Shown here one piece after another: positions 25,144-43,320 of a stretch of DNA of 64,000 nt. Within the stretch, counting starts at the first letter, position 1; the number at the start of each line of letters is the position of its first letter. This DNA is from Solibacillus sp. FSL H8-0538 (GTDB taxonomy: Bacteria > Bacillota > Bacilli > Bacillales_A > Planococcaceae), in assembly GCF_038003525.1 (NCBI RefSeq), contig NZ_JBBOPI010000001.1, positions 859,001 to 923,000 of the forward strand, written 5' to 3'. The notes beneath the pieces are model-generated. The model was not told where the DNA came from. It saw only the letters and a program-made list of their open reading frames with translations, and made no database searches. The position numbers and the translations under genes were made by a program.

Positions 25144-25689
25144 ATGAAGAGCATTCGAAAATCGAGTTTCATTGGTATTCTTACATGTATGGTGCTCGTT
25201 CTTCTTGCAGCGTGTGGAAAGGAAGAACTAAAAGACGTCAGTGTCGGTGAAGTTACACGTTCCATTTTTTATGCGCCACAATATGTAGCCATTGAAAAAG
25301 GCTTTTTTGAAGAAGAAGGCTTGAAAGTGGATTTAAAAACAATTCCTGGTGGCGATAAAACAATGACGGCGCTGTTATCGGGGGGCATTGATGTGGCACT
25401 TGTTGGTTCTGAAACCTCTATTTATGTAACAGCTCAAGGAGCAAACGACCCAATAAAAAACTTTGCTCAGCTTACACAAACAGATGGCACATTTTTAGTA
25501 GCGCGTGAAAAAATCGATAATTTTTCATGGGATATGTTAAAAGGGTCTACATTCCTTGGTCAACGTAAGGGCGGTATGCCACAAATGGCAGGAGAATTTG
25601 TCTTAAAGAAACATGGTATTGATCCGCAAAATGATTTAACGCTTATTCAAAATATTGATTTTGCTAATATTGCAACTGCGTTTGCGTAA
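25144..25689 (+). pseudogene. ABC importer lipoprotein, 5' part, interrupted by the mobile element
   Basis: Residues 1-181 of an NMT1/THI5/SsuA-type substrate-binding lipoprotein. It has a signal peptide with lipobox LAAC and the family opening VGEVTRSIFYAPQYVAIEKGFFEEEGL. The host sequence stops after codon 180 (ACT GCG TTT GC), and element sequence supplies the last codon and the TAA. The missing C-terminal part lies 17.2 kb away before 43320. Joined at TTTGC, the frame is 331 codons, normal for the family. Such proteins bind sulfonates, nitrate or pyrimidine-type precursors; the substrate here is unknown. Confidence 0.93.
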
Positions 25690-25714
25690 GGGTACAAAAA
25701 ACATCACTACATAT
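25660..25714. other. attL: left junction of the element
   Basis: Host sequence ends ...GCAACTGCG, core TTTGC (25681-25685), then element sequence GTAA and the arm GGGTACAAAAAACATCACTA (25690-25709). The reverse complement of the arm shares GTAGTG and TTTTTTGTAyCC with the other end of the element. Confidence 0.85.
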
Positions 25715-25790: not shown

Positions 25791-26006
25791 ATGGGATGGC
25801 GCGGAAAAAGAGGCTTACTTGGGAAGAATTATCCGCAGTCCTCATGTAAGGGAGGAGAGGTACTAGTACTTGCCTATTTGAATACAGACTTAACACCGCA
25901 CCGCTCGCATCATAAACATACGTCACTTTTAGCAGAGACCGGTATAACACTTGATCAAATTATAGACAAGTTCTATTCAGATGATCAAATCTCACGAAAA
26001 AAATGA
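25791..26006 (+). pseudogene. Relic ORF at the left end of the element
   Basis: A 71-codon frame without a good ribosome site. Its last 40 codons (LAETGITLDQIIDKFYSDDQ) look protein-like. Overlapping pieces of protein-like sequence in the other two frames just upstream (ELMSNGMARKKRLTWEELSA) suggest one frameshifted gene. Not recognised. A 12-pair hairpin follows it. Confidence 0.3.
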
Positions 26007-26056
26007 ATCGAAGCCTTCCACAAGTTTGCTCAACTCATGAGACACTTCGATTCATT
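26002..26056. terminator. Hairpin between the left-end relic and the first cargo gene
   Basis: Perfect arms AATGAATCGAAG / CTTCGATTCATT about 31 bases apart. No strong T-run, so function as terminator is uncertain. Confidence 0.45.
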
Positions 26057-29476: not shown

Positions 29477-31750
29477 TTATTCGTCTACATCTGAGAATAT
29501 ATTACCACTATGCTGAGTTTCATATACATCATAGTGAGAGAAATCCTCTTCATCATAATCCTCTTCAAATTGATTTCCTTGTAGCTCCCACTTATAATCG
29601 CTTAATTTCAAAGATGCTTCATGTAAAATATTATCAAAGCACTCTTCTTCTTCCACAGTCAATATTGAACGTCTATTAATTTCATTCAAAAATAATTCTA
29701 CAGAGTGAAACCATTCACTATAAATTTCTTCAAAATCATCTGTATCATCCATATTGTCAAATAATGACTCTAACTCTTCCATAAAATATTCTGCACCTAA
29801 TTCTTTAAATTCTAACAAAATCGAGTCAACATCTCCATCAGTTAAAAACAATCGTATTGTTTCATTGGATAAGTAAGTTGAGTCCCGTCTAGCAATTGCT
29901 ATCCTTCTAACATCTTCGACAATTACACTTCTCAATTCTTCATTAATTAATCCTAGTCTCTCCAATCGAGTTGCAAATTTATATGCAGACCCAAAGTCAA
30001 ATTGTCTGAAAGGCTGTTGTACTAAATGAGATAGATACTTATATTTCTCTTCACTAAACCAACCAAGGAAGTCATCAGGTGTTTCGTGAAGGAAAAATTT
30101 TATTAGGGTTTCTTTTTCAAAATGATACATATTTAGTTCAAATAATTTCTCAGTAAGTAAATCCCAAAACTCTTGAGGAATGAAAATTTTATGCTCTTTA
30201 TCCAGACAAGAAACATCCCGCAGTATTGTTCTATTGTTTGCTCCAATAAGAAATAATTCAAGCATCTCTGTATTTCTAGCTAAGATCATCTGAAGTGAGT
30301 CCAACATACTTGGATGAAAAAGAGACCACATTTGCCTACCAGAAACAATAGATAATTTAACTAAACTATCCTTCATAATATTTAAAGAATTTCTGATTTC
30401 AGGTAAACTAACGGCATACGATTCTTGGAATGTTTTATCAATATTCTCCGCTCTTACTGGGCTAGGTAATTGATTACCATGCAGGAGAATAAGAGTAAGA
30501 GCAGCTTTTTTATTTTCATCAAGTGAATCTATTACATTTTCAAAGAACCGAACTGGCTTAGAGAAAAACTCATTCAATGATTCCCTATTCATAGATAAAT
30601 CCTTATGAAAAATTGAAGTTCCTAGTCTTCTTGCCAATTCAGGGGAAAAGTTTTCATTAGCTGCTACCTCTTCTAAAAAAGGTTTCAATTCCCCCTTAAT
30701 TTCCTTAGTTAAATCGCCACTTTTAATATGATTATAAAGTATTTGTTCTCTTTCATTCTTGGTAAGATCTAGTACATTTATATGAACTTGAGAGTCAAAT
30801 AGTAGAGGAAATACACTTTCCTTTATTTTTGACTGCGCCTCTCTAAAAATGTAATCTCTACTCGTAAAGATAAATGTTGCACCTTTTTTTAAAGCAACAT
30901 TTAGTAGAGGAAAGTTACGGTCCCACTGGTTTAGCAACAAGTTATCTAAATTGGTTGTTCCAAAGGCATCATCGAACCAGTACGTTTTATGAGGGTCTTC
31001 TGGATTCCAATGTTTTCTAAACTCACTTGCATCATTTAAAATAATTGTTTCACGGGATTCATCTTCAGCTATAGCTGTCATACATAAAGTAGCAGCAATT
31101 GTTGTTTTACCAACGGCTGGAGGACCCAGTAAAATTACAAATCTTTTATCTACAATTCCTTTTAAAGCACTTTGATAAGATTTTGTGCTTACAAAGGATA
31201 AAACATTAGCTTGAAGTTCTTCTAACAATTCTTTTGATTGTTTATGTATTCTCTCATCAATAATTTCAGACAAGTCTCCAATTCCATATAACCTAGGAAC
31301 CAGTCTTCTTAAGAATTTATGGGCATCAACAGTTGATTCGAACCATTCCCGTCCTAAAGTTGTACAACTTTTGAGGCCTTTTATCTTAAGAAACTCCTTT
31401 TTTATTTCCTCGTCGTTGCCAGCCGAAAGGTTATAGTTGGTAAATATTATGTAATGTTCTACCCCCTCGCTCTTTACAAGCTCAGTAATTTTTGGAATTT
31501 CATCTTTAACTGCAGATAGGGTAAAATTTTTATCTATTTTAGAGGTATGTTTACATTGAAAGACAAACTTCCCCTTGAGTGGTTTATCATTAACATTTAA
31601 TTTACCTTCACCCTCAAAGAAACCATCTCTGCCTCCATCTTTACCTTCTGAAAAAGGCGTATAGGTAGCACCAAATATATGTTGCATGATATTAGTACAA
31701 AGATTTTCAAATGCTTTCCATCCAAGTAAGTGCATATTATATTTATCCAA
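29477..31750 (-). CDS. Restriction endonuclease-like / STAND ATPase defence protein
   Basis: A 757-aa protein. Residues 1-130 form a PD-(D/E)xK nuclease domain of the Mrr type: GWKAFENLCTNIM, catalytic Asp42 in GGRDGFF, and FQCK (Gln65, Lys67). Residues about 185-400 form a P-loop ATPase of the novel STAND (nSTAND3) kind with Walker A GPPAVGKTT (209-217), Walker B YWFDDAFG (Asp260/261) and FTSRDY near 297. The remainder is an all-helical sensor-like region with an acidic tail. Such nuclease-STAND fusions are known in antiphage systems, where the C-terminal region senses a phage product and the nuclease is the effector. All key residues are intact. Confidence 0.88.
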   Translation of the reverse strand: MDKYNMHLLGWKAFENLCTNIMQHIFGATYTPFSEGKDGGRDGFFEGEGKLNVNDKPLKGKFVFQCKHTSKIDKNFTLSAVKDEIPKITELVKSEGVEHYIIFTNYNLSAGNDEEIKKEFLKIKGLKSCTTLGREWFESTVDAHKFLRRLVPRLYGIGDLSEIIDERIHKQSKELLEELQANVLSFVSTKSYQSALKGIVDKRFVILLGPPAVGKTTIAATLCMTAIAEDESRETIILNDASEFRKHWNPEDPHKTYWFDDAFGTTNLDNLLLNQWDRNFPLLNVALKKGATFIFTSRDYIFREAQSKIKESVFPLLFDSQVHINVLDLTKNEREQILYNHIKSGDLTKEIKGELKPFLEEVAANENFSPELARRLGTSIFHKDLSMNRESLNEFFSKPVRFFENVIDSLDENKKAALTLILLHGNQLPSPVRAENIDKTFQESYAVSLPEIRNSLNIMKDSLVKLSIVSGRQMWSLFHPSMLDSLQMILARNTEMLELFLIGANNRTILRDVSCLDKEHKIFIPQEFWDLLTEKLFELNMYHFEKETLIKFFLHETPDDFLGWFSEEKYKYLSHLVQQPFRQFDFGSAYKFATRLERLGLINEELRSVIVEDVRRIAIARRDSTYLSNETIRLFLTDGDVDSILLEFKELGAEYFMEELESLFDNMDDTDDFEEIYSEWFHSVELFLNEINRRSILTVEEEECFDNILHEASLKLSDYKWELQGNQFEEDYDEEDFSHYDVYETQHSGNIFSDVDE

Positions 31751-33072
31751 TTTTCGACCTCCCCATATTAACTTTTCTATTAAATCTTACCTGTGAATAT
31801 TTTCCTATCTATAATTCTAATACTATTCTTAATACAGAACAAGCACCTTCATAGGTGATTGCAATTGTATTAGAATAATAAACTCGAAAGATACGGAATT
31901 ACTTGTATCAACAAATTGATACGCCATTTCCAGTGTAGAAGGACTTGTAGAATCTAAAAGAAAAAATTTGGATGCCTTCCTAACTTCAAAATGCCGATTA
32001 AATCCATAATGTCTGAAGGTGATCAAGTAGCGGTTTATTTTATATTTGAGAGGTAGCATGGTAGTATTCGACTTTTGGATGATCCTGCAACGGGAAAAAC
32101 CGTTAAATTCTCTCTTATTACACTATTGTGAATTGCTGATGGCAAAATCGGTGGTAAAGATCGTATGTTGATGTACATGATATTTTTCTTCAACTTGGTT
32201 TAAACTCTTAATACTTTGGAAGCTAAACATCGAGTTAGCTAAAAAAGAAATCCTTTAAAGGTCTCATATTTTATACTTGGGTATCAATCTAACCAAGTGC
32301 TTATGTTACTAACCTGCTTCGTTAATTTAATGACTTCAACCACAAAGAACCTTCCCTTACAAGAATTCGGCTTTTTACATTTAGGTAAGTCTTTGAAGTT
32401 ATCACTGGCTTTTCCTCTGTTAAAATTATACGTGCGGCTTTCATCGCATACGGCGTTCCAACTAGTCATATTTTATTCTTTCTATGTTTTAAGAAGTAGA
32501 GTGTAAAATTTCCAAAGTTAGATTGTTTCATTGTTACATTTCAGTCGTAATTTATTTACCACTTCCATTTGCTTAATTAAAAGCTTTGCGGATTATAGGA
32601 ACTTTTCAACTTTTACAATATGCTTCAGATGAATAAGTTGATGTATGGCCTTATCTAGAACTATTTAAGTTTGAATAGCCATCATCTTTAGAAATATGTA
32701 ATCAACCTAATCCGGCATTCTTCTTATTATTTTTAACTTTCTCTCTTCAAAAGACTCCCATATAACACAAATAATACTCTATAAATTACTTCAAATTTCA
32801 ACAAGACCACTTGAAGATACCAAATGAATTTAAAATTTTTTAATTATCTATTCGAACAGCTTAAATCACCTGTTACAATGTTTCAAATTTAGAAAGGACA
32901 ATTAAGTAAATTGCAAAACGGTCTTAAACAGAAAATGGATTAGGAAATAGTTACAAAGCGGAAAATAGTCAAATTGAACTATAAGAATATTAAAATCTGA
33001 AGATAGAATGATTAATACTCGAGGCCAAGAGTATTTTTCAACTTCAAATCATAATGAGAAAGGAGGTCCTTC
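31751..33072. other. 1.3-kb decayed region of the element
   Basis: No intact gene. Short protein-like frames appear and stop in several phases on both strands. It contains the group II intron domain V relic described separately. Overall this looks like the graveyard of one or more earlier insertions. An A/T-rich stretch at the right edge leads to the small-ORF cluster before the recombinases. Confidence 0.45.
32402..32462 (-). mobile_element. Group II intron domain V-like relic
   Basis: On the minus strand the sequence GCCGTATGCGATGAAAGCCG followed by CACGTATAAT closely follows bacterial group II intron domain V (upper stem TGCG-TGAAAG-CGCA, catalytic AGC-like base). Translated in one frame it gives AVCDESRTY, the hallmark by-product of such domains, followed by GKASDNFKDLP. 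The lower stem is partly destroyed and no reverse transcriptase is present nearby, so it is a dead fragment. Confidence 0.5.
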
Positions 33073-33074
33073 AA

Positions 33075-33221
33075 GTGGAGGGAAAAGAGTATCTTAACAA
33101 TACTGAATGGTATAAACAGTGCTTAGACCATTGTGAATCCTTCGGTATCTCTAAAAATATCATTAATTTATTCATTCTCCTACAGGAACAAAACCATGAA
33201 CAAAATTATGAGAAAACTTAA
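33075..33221 (+). CDS. Small ORF upstream of recombinase 1 (48 aa)
   Basis: GTG start with an excellent ribosome site AAAGGAGGT nine bases upstream. The product begins MEGKEYLNNTEWYKQCLDHC and ends HEQNYEKT. Short, polar and helical; not recognised. It overlaps the next small ORF in a different frame, so translation of the two may be coupled. Being first in the recombinase cluster, it could encode a regulator or directionality factor. Confidence 0.5.
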   Translation: MEGKEYLNNTEWYKQCLDHCESFGISKNIINLFILLQEQNHEQNYEKT

Positions 33222-33345
33222 AATTCCAGGATATCAAACAAAGCCAATTATTATTCCAAGGAAGAACAATTCTTCGGTATTACCTGATGTTGTTCAGCTA
33301 TCGTTGGATTTTAATAAAGACGAAAAAAGAGATTTGGAGAATTAA
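33196..33345 (+). CDS. Small basic ORF upstream of recombinase 1 (49 aa)
   Basis: Starts MNKIMRKLKIPGYQTKP and ends DFNKDEKRDLEN. It begins inside the preceding 48-codon frame, with a weak AGGAAC site, so translational coupling is needed. A basic first half and acidic tail suggest a small DNA- or protein-binding factor. Not recognised. Confidence 0.4.
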   Translation: MNKIMRKLKIPGYQTKPIIIPRKNNSSVLPDVVQLSLDFNKDEKRDLEN

Positions 33346-33356
33346 CGTATAAAAAA

Positions 33357-33401
33357 ATCCTCTCCAGGCAATGATTATTACAAAATCATACTGGAGGGGA
33401 T
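33357..33401 (+). promoter_or_regulatory. Hairpin that buries the ribosome site of the recombinase-leader ORF
   Basis: Arms ATCCTCTCCAG (33357-33367) and CTGGAGGGGAT (33391-33401) pair along all 11 bases (one G-U). An inner stem ATGATT / AATCAT extends it. The right arm contains the ribosome site GGAGGGG of the ORF starting at 33405, and no T-run follows, so it is not a terminator. Confidence 0.65.
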
Positions 33402-33404
33402 CAA

Positions 33405-33563
33405 ATGAAGGAAAATTATCGAGTTATTAAAGTCAGTTACTCTGAAGAGCTATCATCTGAATCGGAACTATGGTTTAGACGTTTTATTGAGAAAATGCTA
33501 TTAGACCATATTGTGAAAGATGATTACAGACTACGAGCTTTACTGATTAAAAAGAGAGGTTAA
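33405..33563 (+). CDS. Small basic protein directly before recombinase 1 (52 aa)
   Basis: Begins MKENYRVIKVSYSEELS and ends LRALLIKKRG, with GGAGGGG eight bases upstream inside a hairpin. It ends five bases before recombinase 1, which has no strong ribosome site of its own, so recombinase 1 is probably translated by coupling. Size, charge and position fit a recombination directionality factor, but I see no known family. Confidence 0.6.
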   Translation: MKENYRVIKVSYSEELSSESELWFRRFIEKMLLDHIVKDDYRLRALLIKKRG

Positions 33564-33568
33564 TTTAC

Positions 33569-34945
33569 ATGAGAAAATTTGAAATTATTTATACGCGCGT
33601 CAGTTCAGCAGCACAAAATCTTGAATTACAATTAACTGCTGCAAAAAGGTATCTTGAGTCGATTAATTTAAGTGGCAATGAGGAATCAATTATTTATCTA
33701 TCAGATCACGATGTTTCTGCAACAAAATTGAAAATGGATCAGCGACCAAAATTGGCCGAGTTAATTAGCCTAATTGAAGAAGGCAAAGTAGAAAAGCTAA
33801 TCGTTTATAAACGTGATCGCTTAGCTCGAAACTTTTATGAATTTGTGGATTTAACAAAAATATTTATAAAATATAATGTTGAAATTATATACACAGCTAG
33901 TAATGAACCGCCCTTTAAAAAGAAGCTTGCCCTAGAAGCATTTTATGGAATGTTTGGGCAACTTGAAGGCGAAAATATTCGTACTCGTACGGAAGATGCT
34001 CGCAAACAATATCCTTCGCGTCTTTTTGGCTACACACGAATAAAAGAAGATGAACAAGTTCGCTTCCAAATTAATGAGGATAAAAAAGATTTAATTCTTT
34101 CATTATTTGAAGATTTTAGTAACGTGCAAGACGGTGAGCAATTTCTAAATTTTTTAATGGTACGACGTAAAGGTTTTAATAAGCCTGAAAAGTTGTTTCG
34201 CATTTTATCAAATCCATTTTATGCAGGACACTATGAAGCAAAAAATGGTTATCAGCTATTACCTCATGTAACACCAATAATTGATTTAGACCTTTTCCTT
34301 AAAGGTAAATCCAAACTTGATGAGTACTTTTCCTATTATCAAGAAAGTTTAGATGGTGCTAACAACCAATTTTTAGTTACACCAAATTGCGAGAAGTGTG
34401 GAAATGTAATGAAGCATCGAAGAGAAAATGTGTTTGATATAGGATACTTTGTTTGTAGTGATAACCATAAACGACTTTCAATCACCGTTGAAGAGTTAAA
34501 TTGTTTAGTTAAAGAAACATTATTGGAACACATCCAATCGATTTCAGCCAAACATTTAAGAAGCATTATTTATAAACGCATCATAGCAGAAAATAAAAAG
34601 CTACAAATAGAATTAGAGGTAACTAAATCTGAATTCCTCAATAATTCACTAGCTCTAAGTACCATTGATGTAAAAAGAAAGCCTGCTATAGCAAGGCTAT
34701 TAGATAAAATAAAATCACTAAAAGATAAGTACAATGACTTAGAACTGGATTTACAAAGTATTCAGAAATTAGGTGATGAAATTATAGAAATTTACTCACT
34801 TTTATCACAGCTTACATTAGATTTTACACCGCAAGACCTTCAGCGACTTTCTGAATTGCTTATTGATAAAGTTAAGGTTTATGAAACATATGTACATGTG
34901 GAACTATTCCTTTCCTCTTATGGGAAAGAGGACAATGTCTCATGA
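33569..34945 (+). CDS. Large serine recombinase 1
   Basis: A 458-aa large serine recombinase. The resolvase catalytic domain (1-145) shows IIYTRVSSAAQ with catalytic Ser12 and Arg10, and YKRDRLARN. A recombinase domain (about 160-260) follows, then a zinc ribbon (CEKCGNVM ... CSDNH) and a coiled-coil segment (about 340-420). The stop overlaps the start of recombinase 2 by four bases (ATGA). Somewhat shorter than SCCmec Ccr proteins, with a compact recombinase domain. Host gene partners in the element suggest one of the trio acts at the attL/attR sites. Confidence 0.93.
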   Translation: MRKFEIIYTRVSSAAQNLELQLTAAKRYLESINLSGNEESIIYLSDHDVSATKLKMDQRPKLAELISLIEEGKVEKLIVYKRDRLARNFYEFVDLTKIFIKYNVEIIYTASNEPPFKKKLALEAFYGMFGQLEGENIRTRTEDARKQYPSRLFGYTRIKEDEQVRFQINEDKKDLILSLFEDFSNVQDGEQFLNFLMVRRKGFNKPEKLFRILSNPFYAGHYEAKNGYQLLPHVTPIIDLDLFLKGKSKLDEYFSYYQESLDGANNQFLVTPNCEKCGNVMKHRRENVFDIGYFVCSDNHKRLSITVEELNCLVKETLLEHIQSISAKHLRSIIYKRIIAENKKLQIELEVTKSEFLNNSLALSTIDVKRKPAIARLLDKIKSLKDKYNDLELDLQSIQKLGDEIIEIYSLLSQLTLDFTPQDLQRLSELLIDKVKVYETYVHVELFLSSYGKEDNVS

Positions 34946-36441
34946 CAAAAGTAAACGCTACTGGGTATTTGCGATATTCCGATCAGAAACAGAATGATAA
35001 TCACTCATTAGAAATCCAAAAAAGCCAAATTCAACTATTAGCCGAAAGAGAGAATCTCCAAATCATTGCATGGCGCGCTGATAAGGCAACTAGTGCATTT
35101 CGAAATAATATTAGTAAACGTAAAGGGATTCAATTAATTATTGAAGATATTAAGAGTGGCGCTGGGGCTATCTGCTTCTATGAAGAATCCCGTTTAACTA
35201 GAAGCATTACTGATTTTTACAACGAGCTTTACTTGCCAATTAAATTGGAGTACCCTCATGTTAAGTTTTTTAGTACCCAATCTGAAGCAGAGTGGAATCC
35301 AAATGATCCAATCGTGCAGACAAAGCTTGTCATTGCTGCTGAGGAATCAGAAATAAAGTCTGTTCGCGCAAAAGATGCTCAAAAAAGTTTACTGCATCGT
35401 GAGCAACCGACAAGACCTGGGAGTCGCCCCCCTATTGGCTATGATATGATTGATGGAGTTTTACATCCTAATGAAGATGCACAAATAGTCCAATTAATCT
35501 TCCATCTAGCGTGTTGGGGTCACTCTCATGGATTAATTGCTGATTACCTAAACCAATGCACCATTACTACTAAAAAAGTGAAGTATTGGAATAGTAGCAC
35601 GATCGGATACATCCTTTCTAACAAGGTTTACTCAGGAAATCTAGCTTGGAATGTTAGGACTAGCTACGATTCTAGTAAACCAAAGAATGAATTAGAAATT
35701 GATTTATTCAAAAATGTTCATGAACCAATCATTAGCCCCACCACTTTCCATTTATCTAAACAAATAAATGATTTAAAAAAACAAGTTGGCACGATGAATA
35801 CACCATATTATCTCCGCTCAATATTAAAATGTAAAAAATGCAATTGTTTTTTAGTAGCGAAGGATAATTCACCCAAGGGTAAAAATGGAAAGTATATGAT
35901 TTATAAATGTACAGGATGTAAAAAATCGGTACCGATAATCCCTATCCATCAAGTTGTACTAAATGATCTGCAGAAAAAGTGGAATACACAACTTCATCAC
36001 TTTTCAGCTACTTCAAAAGAACAGCTTAAAAATTGGGCTACTACCCTTACTAAAACAAGTGGTAACATAAAGCATCTTCTTGAAAAAGGACAATATAATC
36101 AAATAATGATGGCAGCAGATATTGAGAATAATCCTCTATTAGCCGAGGTCTTTCAAACTACCCAGCTGCATTTAAAAAACGAATTAATCTACACAAACGA
36201 AACACTAGATGAAATGAAATCTCTTCTTAATGATGACTATCTGGATAAAGTTATAAAAAAGTTAATACAACAAAGCTTTTTTAAATTTAAGGATAATGAA
36301 TTAAGAGTATTTTTCTTAATGTATTTTGAAGAAGTTACAATTAATTTTGAAAAGAATAACGAACTTAGTATAAATTATCGCCTATCTCCTTTTGTCTCAC
36401 TGGAGAAATCCATTGGTTATATAACCGAACAATTTTATTAA
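34942..36441 (+). CDS. Large serine recombinase 2
   Basis: A 499-aa large serine recombinase. Catalytic Ser13 lies in TGYLRYSDQKQ (Arg11), and YEESRLTRS takes the place of the usual YDRLSR helix motif. The recombinase domain spans about 165-300 (SRPPIGYDMIDGVLHP), followed by a zinc ribbon (CKKCNCFLV ... CTGCKKS). It starts inside the recombinase 1 stop (ATGA), so both are made together and may act as a pair, as CcrA and CcrB do in SCC elements. The analogy is inference. Confidence 0.92.
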   Translation: MTKVNATGYLRYSDQKQNDNHSLEIQKSQIQLLAERENLQIIAWRADKATSAFRNNISKRKGIQLIIEDIKSGAGAICFYEESRLTRSITDFYNELYLPIKLEYPHVKFFSTQSEAEWNPNDPIVQTKLVIAAEESEIKSVRAKDAQKSLLHREQPTRPGSRPPIGYDMIDGVLHPNEDAQIVQLIFHLACWGHSHGLIADYLNQCTITTKKVKYWNSSTIGYILSNKVYSGNLAWNVRTSYDSSKPKNELEIDLFKNVHEPIISPTTFHLSKQINDLKKQVGTMNTPYYLRSILKCKKCNCFLVAKDNSPKGKNGKYMIYKCTGCKKSVPIIPIHQVVLNDLQKKWNTQLHHFSATSKEQLKNWATTLTKTSGNIKHLLEKGQYNQIMMAADIENNPLLAEVFQTTQLHLKNELIYTNETLDEMKSLLNDDYLDKVIKKLIQQSFFKFKDNELRVFFLMYFEEVTINFEKNNELSINYRLSPFVSLEKSIGYITEQFY

Positions 36442-36629
36442 ATCGATATTTTGACTGGTTAGGCAACCGAAACGAAATGCACTTACTACATTTTTAGAAA
36501 ATCCACTTTTCATGAATCCCTTGATATCAAGGGATTTAGAGTATAATCATTCGGTTCCCTAACCATCTTGGAATTCCTCGATGGCCTTAAAACCGAAAGC
36601 TATAATGTATTTATGGTCAAAAAACCGAA
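36423..36629. repeat. Cluster of five AACCGAA heptamers with an inverted pair and a 22-bp palindrome
   Basis: AACCGAA occurs at 36423, 36465, 36591 and 36623, and inverted (TTCGGTT) at 36550. Two copies belong to longer inverted arms GGTTAGGCAACCGAA (36457-36471) and TTCGGTTCCCTAACC (36550-36564), 14 of 15 positions matching. Between them lies a perfect 22-bp palindrome centred on TTGATATCAA (36515-36536). It lies just behind recombinase 2. Confidence 0.65.
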
Positions 36630-36740
36630 GTTTTAAACTTAGAATATAATAATTTTTTTAAGAGGCTTAAAATATAAAAATACAAAGATATAATGATTTA
36701 AGAAATATCCAATCGAATAGTAGAACCCCAAAATAAGCGA

Positions 36741-36804
36741 AAACCGCAGCGGGAACTAAATCCACATTATTAATTTGTGGATCTAGTCTTACTGCGTTTT
36801 TTTT
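36741..36804 (+). terminator. Branched hairpin with T8, probable terminator of the recombinase 1-2 operon
   Basis: Outer stem CGCAG / CTGCG, inner stem ACTAAATCCACA / TGTGGATCTAGT with one mismatch, followed by a T8 run. Confidence 0.65.
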
Positions 36805-36823
36805 GCGAAAGGAAGATGTATAA

Positions 36824-36910
36824 ATGATCCATCAACTAAAAGCAGTAATGTATTATCGTGTAAACTCAATTGAACAGCTATATTCAATTCCAACAGGAAG
36901 TAAAATTTAA
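36824..36910 (+). pseudogene. Short ORF resembling a serine recombinase N-terminus (28 aa)
   Basis: GAAAGGAAG precedes ATG. The product MIHQLKAVMYYRVNSIEQ resembles the resolvase opening (AxxYxRVSTxEQ) but has Asn at the catalytic Ser position and stops after 28 codons. Either the stump of a fourth recombinase gene or a chance likeness. Confidence 0.35.
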
Positions 36911-37042
36911 AAGGATTATTTGGACAATATTCCTAAAGTCTACGAAAAAGTTTATTTAATCAAAAGTTAACAGCATAGAAGAAATGGAATAACAGAATTC
37001 ACTATAAAGTTTTAATATGAACAACTAAATAACTGATAAGGG

Positions 37043-37096
37043 AAAACCCCATAGAAGGTTTTACACAAAATTGTGTAAAACCTTCTATGGGGTTTT
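37043..37096. terminator. Long perfect hairpin (26 pairs, two-base loop)
   Basis: Arms of 26 bases, starting AAAACCCCATAGAAGG and ending in the exact complement followed by TTTT and more T. It can terminate in both directions, but its length and perfection exceed ordinary terminators. It separates recombinases 1-2 from recombinase 3. Confidence 0.8.
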
Positions 37097-37117
37097 TCTT
37101 TTTTAAAAGAATTAAAA

Positions 37118-37206
37118 AGGGTGTTGAATTAAGCGTTATTATGAGTCATTCCAATGTAAATAAATGACTAATATTATCGATTCAAAACGAATACACTTTA
37201 ACACCC
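37118..37206 (+). promoter_or_regulatory. Nested inverted repeats in the leader of recombinase 3
   Basis: Outer arms AGGGTGTT (37118) and AACACCC (37200), inner arms AGTCATT (37144) and AATGACT (37163). They lie between the long hairpin and the 67-aa ORF. Could be an operator, recombinase binding site or RNA structure. Confidence 0.35.
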
Positions 37207-37228
37207 CATAACATCGGAGTGATTTATT

Positions 37229-37432
37229 ATGAAGGAAGTAATTCATCATCAATCGTTGGGTAAAATTGACATAGGTGGAGTAACGTATCTCCACAAACCA
37301 GATGATAATTTTGATTATTTAAAGGATATTTCAGAAAATGAAGTTAAAATACATTTAAAATTCACCAAAGACCGTGAAAAAAGAAAAGAAGCAAAAAATG
37401 CATTAAAAACGTTTTTCTTAGAGATATTATAA
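37229..37432 (+). CDS. Small protein upstream of recombinase 3 (67 aa)
   Basis: ATG with CGGAGTGA eight bases upstream. The product starts MKEVIHHQSLGKIDIGG and ends in a basic helix (FTKDREKRKEAKNALKTFFL). It stands 41 bases before recombinase 3 in the same direction, mirroring the small ORF before recombinase 1. Candidate accessory or directionality factor; no family recognised. Confidence 0.65.
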   Translation: MKEVIHHQSLGKIDIGGVTYLHKPDDNFDYLKDISENEVKIHLKFTKDREKRKEAKNALKTFFLEIL

Positions 37433-37473
37433 ATATCTCTTTTTTTAACTTAACAGGCGAATGAAACGGGTGT

Positions 37474-39072
37474 GTGGAAATGAAACGAGTTTGGTGTCTT
37501 TATCGAGTATCTAAGAAACAACAAGTAAGTATAGATGATGATATACCGATGCAAAGGAATTCTTGTCATGAATTCATCAAAAACAAACCTGATTGGATAA
37601 TAACAAATGAGTTATACGAAAAAGGAGTATCCGGTTGGAAGAAAACAGTAAACGAACGAGATGAAATGGCCATACTAAAAGATGGCGCATTAAATAAAGA
37701 ATTTGACGTACTTTTGGTTTTCATGTTCGATCGTTTAGGTAGAAGAGAAGATGAAACACCAGTAATGGTAAATTTTTTAATTCAGAACGATATTGAGGTC
37801 TGGTCTGTAAAAGAGGGCCAAAGAAAAATTGAATCTCATATTGATAAGCTTCTAAATTATATAAGCTTTTGGCAATCGGATGGAGAAAGTCAAAAAACTT
37901 CAATTAGGGTAAAAGAAGCAAAGAAACAGCTAAGTGAACAAGGCTATTTTCAAGGTGGCTCGGCACCAATTGGATACAAAATTGTTGAAACAGCTGAGCA
38001 ACACTGGAAAATTAGAGAACGTCGAGTTAAAGAATTAGTACCAGATGAAGATGAATCTGAAATGATTAAGTTGATTTATAAATTATATGTAAACAAACAT
38101 ATGGGTTATAGAAAAATTGCTGATTATTTAAATGAAAATGGATATCGAAATAGAGACGGTAATGTTTTTGTGGTGAGTACCATACAGAGAATATTATCAA
38201 ATTCAATTTACATTGGTTTAAAGAGATATAAAAATGCTGTAGGAGGAATGCAGCCGTTTAACGAAAGGTTAAGAATTATTCCAGATGAGTTATTTAGTCA
38301 AGCTGAACAAATAAGAAATAATAGGAGTAGTAATATTAAAGAACAAGACAAATCAGATATACCAAGAACAGGGAAATTGCTGTTTTCAGGTTTGGCATAC
38401 TGCAAATATTGTGGTTCAAAGTTAACCTCTAATTATTTATATAGGAAGTTAAAATATAATAATAAAGAGGGATACTATAAAAACACCATTTACCGATATA
38501 AATGTCCTTTAAATAAAGGTAAATTATATTGTGATCATCAACAAAATATCTGGGGTGGAAAAAAATTCGATACACTAATTATTAATAAGATAAAAATTAT
38601 CTTATCACAATTTGAATTGAGATCCTTTCTTGATACAAGCAAAAATATGAAAGCAGAATTGCTAAAGCTAAAGGAACGGAGTGTTCATAATTTAGAAAAA
38701 GAATATTTACATTTAACAAAGCAACATGAAAAATTAAACCTTGAAATTGGGAAGACTTTAATCGGGGAGAGTTCTTTTACTGCTGAACAGTTATCTGGAG
38801 CCATTAATGCAATAGAAAAGCAAATAGAAGAAAAGTTATCACAATTAAATTCTTTGAAAGAAGAATTGGAAAAAGAGAGAGAGAACTATTCGGATGTGAA
38901 TTATCTGGCAAATGAATTAGAAAATTGGAAGCAAAAGTTTAATGAAGCAGATGATGATCTAAAAAAAGCAATGCTCTCAAGAATAATAAATAAGGTTTAT
39001 TTAGGGAAAAATGAAATAGAAATTGAACTAAATATATGGTTATCAGATTACTTTGAAGGGAAATTTGATTAG
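37474..39072 (+). CDS. Large serine recombinase 3
   Basis: A 532-aa large serine recombinase. Catalytic domain 1-150 with LYRVSKKQQ (Ser13, Arg11) and FMFDRLGRREDE; recombinase domain about 165-290 (GGSAPIGYKI, GYRKIADYLNENGYR); zinc ribbon at about 310-365 (CKYCGSKL ... CPLNKGKLYCDH); and a long coiled coil at about 390-490. This is the classical architecture of phage integrases such as phiC31-like and TP901-like enzymes. Start may be GTG 37474 or ATG 37480. It has its own leader and is separated from the other two by strong terminators. Confidence 0.94.
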   Translation: MEMKRVWCLYRVSKKQQVSIDDDIPMQRNSCHEFIKNKPDWIITNELYEKGVSGWKKTVNERDEMAILKDGALNKEFDVLLVFMFDRLGRREDETPVMVNFLIQNDIEVWSVKEGQRKIESHIDKLLNYISFWQSDGESQKTSIRVKEAKKQLSEQGYFQGGSAPIGYKIVETAEQHWKIRERRVKELVPDEDESEMIKLIYKLYVNKHMGYRKIADYLNENGYRNRDGNVFVVSTIQRILSNSIYIGLKRYKNAVGGMQPFNERLRIIPDELFSQAEQIRNNRSSNIKEQDKSDIPRTGKLLFSGLAYCKYCGSKLTSNYLYRKLKYNNKEGYYKNTIYRYKCPLNKGKLYCDHQQNIWGGKKFDTLIINKIKIILSQFELRSFLDTSKNMKAELLKLKERSVHNLEKEYLHLTKQHEKLNLEIGKTLIGESSFTAEQLSGAINAIEKQIEEKLSQLNSLKEELEKERENYSDVNYLANELENWKQKFNEADDDLKKAMLSRIINKVYLGKNEIEIELNIWLSDYFEGKFD

Positions 39073-40826: not shown

Positions 40827-42122
40827 TTAAAAGTTTTCTTTAAAATTTTCCCTATGATCCTTTAGTGCATCAAGCGAAGGGTGATAATCCTTATTTATTG
40901 GTAATCTGATTTTCTGTTTATCAAAAGACCGGTAATAATCCGATTCAACTTTATATGAAATTAGAAGTTCATAATTATCACTGATTATTATTAGTCCCGC
41001 ATCAAATAATTTATGAAAATCGACTCTTAATAATATGCCATTCTGCGGATGATGGCTTTTCTCGTTAATGTATCCTTGGATATGCGCTGATTCCAAAACC
41101 TCTTTAATTGACTCATTAGTAATTGCACATTTTTCTAGGTAATTAAAGCATATTCGATCCCTAAACTCGCCTTGTCTAACTCTTTTTACTGCTTGATTCA
41201 CATTCTCTTTATCTTTTAAACTTGAATCTAGCAATTTAAACGGTTTAAATTCAAAATTCAAGTTATATAAATCGCTCATTAATTGTTCATTAGTAAATCT
41301 TTTAAGTCTAGTAGGAAAGCTTTTCGTTCCGTTAGATTGTGTTTGTTGTTTTAGATTAAATCTAAATATAATCTCAGTTAATGCTTTTTTTTCATTAAAA
41401 AGACCGTCTTTCAAGTAAATACTTTTAGCCAAAGCAACTTTACCAGAATCTACAATATAGTTTGGTTTTTTTTCTGGAAAGCCAAATATATCTGCTAAAG
41501 ATTCGATTCTTCTACTAATTAAGAATCTTCCACTGTTTGGATTTATATCTTCTTTGTGCCTTCCTTTTTTTATCTTTTTAATAACATATTCACTTTCTAT
41601 GAGAGGAAAAACAGTGGTTTTTGCTTCTGAAGTTCCGTTTTTTAAGAAGTATTGTTTTTGATCATTCGCCTTTAAGATTAATTCAATACATTTCTCACTA
41701 ACCACTAAATGTCTTATTTCACCATTATCATTTAGTTTCAGCATATTTTTATCTATATTTACATCTTCCATTTTCAAATTTAGAAGTTCTGAAAACCTAT
41801 CACCGCCAACTCCTTCAAATAATAATTGCAGGATAATTGAATCTTGAGGATTTATACATTTTTCAATAATTTCTTCAAATTCACTATCCAACAAGTAAGG
41901 TTTATGCGGAGGAACTAAACTTTTGATCCATTGCGAACTCATGGATTTTCCCAATAGGTTAAATTTTGCAAATTCCATTTCGACGCAATAGTTAATATAA
42001 CTTTTAAGTAAAGATAAACGCGTTCTAATGCTTTCTTCTGTTGATAGATTATATGATTTTAATAACTGTTCCATTTCTTTAAGATTAAAATCATAAATAT
42101 CCTTATTAAAGAGTAATTCCAC
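40827..42122 (-). CDS. Degenerate tyrosine-integrase fold fused to HNH endonuclease
   Basis: A 431-aa protein. Residues 1-100 look like an integrase SAM-like/core-binding domain (LKEMEQLLKSYNLSTEESIR). Residues 110-270 follow the tyrosine recombinase catalytic fold, with LLFEGVGGDRFSELLNLKMEDVNID keeping the first catalytic Arg. The usual HxxR is replaced (VDSGKVALAKSIYLKDG) and no catalytic Tyr is evident. Residues 330-405 form an HNH_2-type nuclease (RDRICFNYLEKCAITNE, ESAHIQGY, NGILLRVDFHKLFDAG). So it probably binds DNA with a dead integrase fold and cuts with HNH. The frame stays open upstream to 42218 with protein-like sequence and a better ribosome site, so the true start may be earlier, possibly ATT. 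Confidence 0.8.
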   Translation of the reverse strand: MELLFNKDIYDFNLKEMEQLLKSYNLSTEESIRTRLSLLKSYINYCVEMEFAKFNLLGKSMSSQWIKSLVPPHKPYLLDSEFEEIIEKCINPQDSIILQLLFEGVGGDRFSELLNLKMEDVNIDKNMLKLNDNGEIRHLVVSEKCIELILKANDQKQYFLKNGTSEAKTTVFPLIESEYVIKKIKKGRHKEDINPNSGRFLISRRIESLADIFGFPEKKPNYIVDSGKVALAKSIYLKDGLFNEKKALTEIIFRFNLKQQTQSNGTKSFPTRLKRFTNEQLMSDLYNLNFEFKPFKLLDSSLKDKENVNQAVKRVRQGEFRDRICFNYLEKCAITNESIKEVLESAHIQGYINEKSHHPQNGILLRVDFHKLFDAGLIIISDNYELLISYKVESDYYRSFDKQKIRLPINKDYHPSLDALKDHRENFKENF

Positions 42123-42834: not shown

Positions 42835-42890
42835 TAGTAGTGTTTTTTGTATCCGTAAGCCTTTGCATCTGGAACGGGCGATTATGTTCA
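42835..42890. other. attR: right junction of the element
   Basis: Element arm GTAGTGTTTTTTGTATCC (42837-42854), spacer GTAAGCC, core TTTGC (42862-42866), then host sequence ATCTGGAACGGGCGATT. The host frame resumes at once in phase with the 5' part of the lipoprotein gene. Confidence 0.85.
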
Positions 42891-43320
42891 ATTATTTGAA
42901 CCGACTGCAAGTGTTTTTGAAAAAGAGGGAGTTGGTCATATTGTTGCCTCATTTGGTACAGAATCAGGCCATTTACCATACACAACATTTATGACAAAAG
43001 CGAGTTATATCGAGAATGATGCCGAAACGTACGAGAAATTTACGAGAGCTATAAAAAAAGCGCAAGATTGGGTATATGAAAATAGTGCGGAGGATATTGC
43101 TAAGGTAATTCAGCCGTATTTTGAGAATACGGATGTAGCGTTAATTGCTACAGTTGTTGAACGCTATCGCTCACAAGGATCGTATGCACGTGATCCGATT
43201 TTAGACGAGGAAGAATGGAATAACTTACAAGATGTGATGGATGAAGCAGGGGAATTACCAAAAAGAATGGATTATAACGAGCTAGTAAATACGTCGTTTG
43301 CCGAGAAAGTATCGAAGTAA
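42862..43320 (+). pseudogene. ABC importer lipoprotein, 3' part, cut off by the element
   Basis: Codes for the last 151 residues (from about SGTGDYVQLFEPTASVFEKE) of the NMT1/SsuA-type binding protein. The sequence ends DYNELVNTSFAEKVSK, two bases before the ATPase ATG. With the element in place this part has no start signal of its own except an internal ATG at 42991 without a ribosome site, so no functional binding protein is made. Excision would restore the gene. Confidence 0.92.

Follow-up and report, generated by a model that had tools for sequence, protein, structure and literature searches.

The window, the whole 64,000-nt stretch analysed here, contains an element of 17,181 bp, measured between the centres of the TT dinucleotides in attL and attR, and within it the genes of three large serine recombinases, R1, R2 and R3 (Table 1). 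A sequence-only reading by a model had described three unlike recombinases in a 17-kb element with none at an end, the first 2 overlapping by ATGA; the element length was measured, its ends are free of recombinases, all 3 frames are intact, their coordinates were confirmed, and the shared ATGA lies at 34942-34945. R2 and R3 are separated by about 1.0 kb containing a 54-bp hairpin and then the small gene S3, in agreement with the separate leader and small ORF described for the third recombinase. The earlier reading had not mentioned 2 further small ORFs upstream of R1, the composite palindromic site that follows R2, or a tyrosine-integrase remnant near the left end of the element. The Resolvase domain was identified in R1, R2, and R3, and the Recombinase domain in R2 and R3 and not in R1 (Pfam); R3 scored above the cut-off for PF00239 and PF07508, and for PF13408 reached 24.0 bits, slightly below the required 25.3. 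Catalytic Ser and nearby Arg residues, which had been described as kept, showed no variation across 19 R1/R2 homologue pairs. Zinc ribbons had been assigned to all 3 proteins, and this stands in part: the zinc-ribbon-type set of R1 (C-x2-C...C...H) is invariant in the 19 pairs, whereas the R3 match falls just under the Pfam cut-off and cysteines are absent from the invariant columns of R2. R2 and R3 match each other weakly. Against PDB, the R1 profile matched catalytic domains and the C-terminal region of A118 integrase, R2 matched structures of YokA (SPbeta), and R3 had no match.

Table 1. Coordinates of features in and around the element (positions in the window)
Feature	Position	Strand	Evidence or remark
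5' part of gene for SsuA-family ABC transporter substrate-binding protein (attB target)	25144-25689	+	NCBIfam SsuA_fam
attL	25657-25712	+	crossover TT 25681/25682; inner arm GGGTACAAAAAACATCACTAC
C-terminal remnant of a tyrosine integrase of the groEL-site family	25845-26051	+	blastx 52% identity, E 6e-20 vs G126b integrase
Mrr-like nuclease and nSTAND3 NTPase fusion, candidate defence protein	29477-31750	-	PADLOC candidate PDC-S73
sA, 48 aa, first gene of the R1-R2 module	33075-33221	+	upstream ORF kept in most of 24 modules
sB, 49 aa, overlapping sA	33196-33345	+	
sC (S0), 52 aa, 5 nt upstream of R1	33405-33563	+	alignment
R1, large serine recombinase, 458 aa	33569-34945	+	intact frame
R2, large serine recombinase, 499 aa	34942-36441	+	intact frame; ATGA overlap with R1
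Site I, accessory palindrome	36506-36545		core CCCTTGATATCAAGGG at 36518-36533; centre varies between modules
Site II, 48-bp palindrome, candidate R1-R2 crossover site	36550-36597		central AT 36573-36574
Half-site ATGGTCAAAAAACCGAA, similar to right arm of site II	36613-36629	+	alignment
Perfect 54-bp hairpin followed by T run, probable terminator dividing R1-R2 module from S3-R3	37042-37096		
S3, 67 aa, candidate recombination directionality factor of R3	37229-37432	+	intact frame
R3, large serine integrase of the element, 532 aa	37474-39072	+	intact frame
attR	42836-42886	+	crossover TT 42862/42863; inner arm GTAGTGTTTTTTGTATCC
3' part of substrate-binding protein gene	42863-43320	+	in-frame rejoining to full-length ORF

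Relatives of R3 (57-92% identity) were identified in 10 of 250 order genomes, counting the window genome and one partial copy, and in 8 of the 9 R3/S3 loci examined one and the same transporter gene is interrupted at an identical codon, with only the ninth, G226 (57% identity), located elsewhere. These 8 loci comprise 4 elements with all three recombinases (trio elements) and 4 with R3 only, and their breakpoint is identical, base for base, in the 8 left and 7 right junctions aligned. Removal of the 17,181 bp in silico yields a single continuous ORF of 332 codons including the stop, and relatives carry uninterrupted alleles of the substrate-binding protein gene. The attP is an inverted repeat, with inner arms GTAGTGTTTTTTGTA and TACAAAAAACACTAC flanking GCCTTTGC and inverted about TT; R3 thus has the fixed target and inverted-repeat attP of a large serine integrase. 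Because of the common split point, this attP, the restored frame, and the intact alleles, we conclude from the compared loci that R3, with S3, is the integrase of the element, as the sequence-only reading had proposed for the third recombinase. S3 lies immediately 5' of R3 in all 9 loci checked, with 42-88% identity outside the window, and this position directly upstream makes it the likely directionality factor of R3.

The 4 elements with R3 only have the same insertion site and the same att arms, and R1-R2 are missing from them. This agrees with the earlier suggestion that the pair has a role different from that of R3, and the uses imagined for it find no support: excision of this element in view of the same 4 elements and of a candidate pair site that is intact inside the element, and internal rearrangement, taken narrowly, for want of a second site in the genome. 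We likewise rejected R1-R2 as the integrase of the element, on the 4 same-site elements and the unsplit site of the pair. As a separate observation, the gene block containing R3 has one orientation relative to the att sites in WIN (the window element), G004, G106, and G126a and the opposite one in G002, G005, G021, and G247; since the att core TT is asymmetric, element interiors have been inverted, and such inversions were seen both with and without R1-R2.

R1 and R2 form part of a module of about 3.8 kb, made up of 3 small upstream ORFs (sA, sB, and sC), R1, R2, and then the 48-bp palindrome; sC precedes R1 in nearly all modules complete at that end. By profile and sequence searches, we identified about 30 R1-R2 modules in Bacilli, with hosts including Lysinibacillus, Sporosarcina, Cytobacillus, Neobacillus, Shouchella, and thermophiles. 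The integrase near the module was R3 with S3 in 4 cases, tandem tyrosine integrases in about 6 (at groEL in the 2 loci whose flanks were examined), and a 492-aa serine recombinase in about 6 (adjoining an rlmD-like gene in the 2 examined), and the remaining modules had other tyrosine enzymes in a few cases and no integrase found in several. Identities of R1 and R2 correlate (r=0.98), and in the combined R1+R2 tree, where the nodes relied on have support close to 1.0, integrase types are interleaved: G142 (tyrosine) groups with G247 and G106 (R3), L070 (tyrosine) with L062 and L064 (492-aa serine), and L066 and L071 (tyrosine) with G239 (492-aa serine). On the correlation and the mixture of integrase types in the tree, we conclude that the R1-R2 module is inherited as a whole and exchanged between integrases. 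Among trio elements, R3 is 90-92% identical, whereas identity to the window proteins is just 57-59% for R1 and 64-65% for R2, and R1-R2 and R3 therefore differ in history.

R1 and R3, with 10 carriers of each, co-occur in 4 of the 250 genomes (hypergeometric probability 0.0002). The sequence-only reading had staked its proposal on conservation of the trio and on its members not belonging to separate elements, and the outcome is divided: the trio recurs in these 4 order genomes, the window genome included, and the pair is also found without R3, beside other integrases. Cargo from 6 module loci included GajA, PARIS AriA, type I restriction-modification, TmtA, Avs1a/LmuA-like, and PDC candidate matches. 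Among viral contigs, relatives of R1 were weak partial matches at most. A 147-aa N-terminal fragment of a serine recombinase was identified between R2 and the 492-aa serine recombinase in L062 (13235-13678), with similar fragments in L064 and G239. In the trio element of G126a (L027/L028), the R1 frame is broken and R2 may be shortened, with S3 and R3 retained, and the same genome has a second R1-R2 module, intact, at groEL.

In nearly every module surveyed, site II comes straight after R2, inside a conserved noncoding stretch directly 3' of that gene, and follows the pattern TTCGGT-N15-GNATNC-N15-ACCGAA. Across an alignment of 21 modules, mirrored positions pair in 78% of cases, falling to 16-26% when the axis is slid by 1-3 bp; the outer 6 positions and the inner CCATC are almost invariant, and AT stands at the centre in 20 of the 21, the exception being L072 with TT. 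A distant carrier, G489, has a perfect palindrome (24/24 pairs) with different inner arms, and module G355 has no detectable site II. Site I has the form CTTG-N4-CAAG, and its centre lies exactly 48 bp to the left of that of site II (-48 bp) in 20 of the 20 loci where it was found. We searched for the site II pattern in the 250 order genomes and in 399 genomes of the class Bacilli, the window genome being in both sets. It matched 8 of the 250, with one copy each and all of them R1 carriers, and 4 of the 399, namely 3 R1 carriers and 1 non-palindromic stray; across the union of the 2 sets, 11 genomes matched, 10 of them R1 carriers and 1 a chance match. The reversed pattern had no match in either genome set. 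Among the R1 carriers in the class set, 6 lacked a strict match, and 4 of these had a relaxed version. A viral origin of site II was considered and rejected: the 3 IMG/VR matches were non-palindromic (8-14 of 24 pairs) and lay in stretches without matches to window proteins, R1 and R2 included, and the 2 examined were both within coding sequence.

The palindromes might act as a regulatory RNA or an operator rather than as a recombination site. Sites I and II are both able to fold as hairpins, and a motif like CTTG-N4-CAAG also occurs upstream of sA in several modules, but no Rfam family exceeded its gathering score over 32400-37500, and site II mismatches show no excess of G-T (15, vs 31 A-C), so that nothing suggests RNA and a hairpin in RNA of the coding strand is disfavoured. 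The central AT is also conserved where the flanking position is variable. We consider this reading unlikely, although site II may serve as an operator or some other binding site. Nor do we find it probable that the pair is a spent integrase, a relic left behind by an older element that now lies inside the R3 element. Such a relic would agree with the sharp edges of the module and its exchangeability; against it, the R1 and R2 frames are intact with catalytic residues invariant in the 19 pairs, the operon with its small ORFs is conserved, and the palindrome is unsplit in nearly all carriers where split att sites would be expected. We hold the chance of it to be small.

DNA to the right of site II varies. 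Left of site II, the 4 closely related thermophile modules L075-L078 are 88-97% alike; right of it their DNA is unrelated. In L077, the likeness to its relatives ends 2 bp beyond the site II centre, and the DNA beyond the break is the interior of a transposase gene, of which an uninterrupted relative also has AT at the joint. The junction matches what a two-base AT crossover would leave, and it is a single event; the lost half of the site was looked for in the L077 draft genome and not found. In mesophile modules with different integrases, homology ends at about +118 to +138 and not at the site II centre, which fits the composite site moving whole or ordinary recombination beyond it. Because related sequences are not independent, the counts of loci and genomes given here overstate the number of events. 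The left 130 bp of the window site is nearest to G142 (77%, with 63% to G106) and the right 130 bp to G106 (84%), a left-right chimerism that is suggestive in a comparison made after the fact.

One explanation for these patterns is that R1-R2 fuse islands by recombining site II with site II and so gather integrases and defence cargoes, as proposed for CcrAB and SCC composites. It is in keeping with one module type standing beside at least 3 kinds of integrase, with the remnant of a tyrosine integrase within this R3 element, with the variable right flanks, with the window site being nearer to different relatives on each side, and with the tandem integrases of several carriers, at groEL in the 2 examined. 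Genomes with 2 site II matches are, however, absent among the 250 and the 399, and the mesophile breakpoints fall outside the site; we treat fusion as possible but somewhat doubtful. The remnant itself lies at the left end of the element, where the stretch across it has 75% DNA identity with G126a.

A second explanation takes R1-R2 and the composite site as a system for multimer resolution of a circular form, with integrases swapped through ordinary homologous recombination. The palindrome with its invariant centre, the accessory palindrome at fixed spacing, the palindromic AT centre, and the single copy beside the genes all favour it, and Abe et al. (PMC5595907) proposed resolution for girAB because plasmid pMC319 encodes relatives. 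Against it, integrases have been swapped several times beside one module type, the L077 junction connects unrelated DNA, and R1 is without a close plasmid relative in PLSDB, where neither R1 nor R2 had a match better than about 24-29% identity. We give resolution a substantial chance, if a little short of an even one.

We favour, with moderate confidence, a model of two systems in which R3 with S3 performs integration and R1 and R2 act together at a composite site of their own. In the first system, R3 would insert the element into the substrate-binding protein gene by attP x attB recombination, and the element would presumably be removed by R3 with S3 as directionality factor. The second would consist of the sA-sB-sC-R1-R2 cassette and its composite site (site II, site I 48 bp to the left, and half-sites), at which R1 and R2 together would act on site II rather than on the element ends, so as to fuse, exchange, or resolve islands or their circular forms. 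What the compared sequences show is the set of parts and how they are linked, the constant geometry, the exchange of integrases, and one junction at a site centre; from these we infer the cutting of site II by R1-R2, the role of S3 as directionality factor, and the direction of the reaction. Since each genome has one copy of the site, R1-R2 would be expected to join or separate 2 molecules with one site each, and the single site beside the pair suits a two-molecule reaction or one between 2 copies in a dimer. The pair appears ill-suited as an integrase because its single internal site is intact and the site of an integrase splits on insertion. Fusion or exchange would explain the swapping of integrases, the tyrosine-integrase remnant, and the variable right flanks, and resolution would explain the res-like layout, with about equal weight. 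A wider proposal, that the module is a transferable two-enzyme cassette, not an integrase, which shuffles or merges defence islands with unrelated integrases across Bacilli, we put forward tentatively, as rather less likely than not.

The earlier statement that 3 large serine recombinases in one element match no common class does not hold, as gin elements (PMC5595907) and streptococcal ICEs with serine-integrase triplets (PMC4701971) were already published. As described by Abe et al. (2017; PMC5595907), gin elements of Bacillus cereus and B. toyonensis carry a girA-girB operon, the girC integrase, and girX; their third recombinase, aided by a small directionality factor, excises the element during sporulation, GirC and GirX act at the gin ends, deletion of girAB left excision unaffected, and the authors leave the role of girAB open, proposing composite formation or multimer resolution. 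By the same account, the element studied here resembles gin in its two-gene recombinase operon with a separate third large serine recombinase doing the integration, in an insertion that interrupts a host gene, the frame of which excision restores, in the absence of phage genes and a mixed cargo including restriction-modification, and in a pair less conserved than the integrase. It differs in its target, which is gerE for gin and an SsuA-family substrate-binding protein gene here, and in the 67-aa S3 directly upstream of R3, compared with a GirX of 42 aa; the text consulted describes girAB without a site or small ORFs. Membership in the gin class is by architecture, because the Gir proteins were compared by description and not by sequence. 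No description of site II or of the small ORFs was found in the open-access literature, with subscription papers outside the scope of the search, and no later open-access paper on the function of a girAB-type pair was found after 2017.

SCC elements, which are chromosomal islands, likewise encode 2 different large serine recombinases in a single operon, and CcrAB, as cited in PMC5595907, is reported to recombine site with site, fusing islands. Here, in contrast, a third enzyme integrates, the site of the pair is internal to the element, and the element lies in a transporter gene, whereas SCC integrates at the rlmH end. Scores for the Ccr models were far from those required (R1, CcrA 42/700 bits; R2, CcrB 64/900; R3, CcrB 94/900). 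Streptococcal ICEs share the 3 large serine recombinases per element and insertion within genes, but their triplet sits at the ICE extremity and is read as 2 duplications of one module (PMC4701971); here R3 lies 1 kb from R2 with none of the 3 at an element end, and R1-R2 and R3 are distant in sequence and different in history.

Serine resolvases such as those of Tn3/gamma-delta and Sin are single small recombinases that act at multi-subsite res sites; such systems delete the DNA between 2 direct sites with topological selectivity. The candidate R1-R2 site resembles res in layout alone, being a composite site beside its gene with a palindromic AT crossover and accessory subsites at fixed spacing, and differs in being paired with 2 large recombinases and 3 small proteins.

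The 3 recombinases are thus a real finding of a known class; what the analysis adds is an independent R1-R2 module with its candidate site. A pair that is likely of girAB type gains operon partners, an exact candidate site, and a site geometry, and the module occurs in islands that differ in their integrases; phage-defence genes (Gabija, PARIS, type I restriction, and Avs1-like) are present in several of these islands. If R1-R2 do join or exchange islands, they would provide a route for the assembly of bacterial defence islands. Two large serine recombinases that share a symmetric site might also find use as a laboratory tool. Within the element of the window, the minus strand at 40827-42122 also encodes an MrpR-like protein, with repressor domains of the tyrosine-recombinase fold, fused to an HNH_2 endonuclease domain.
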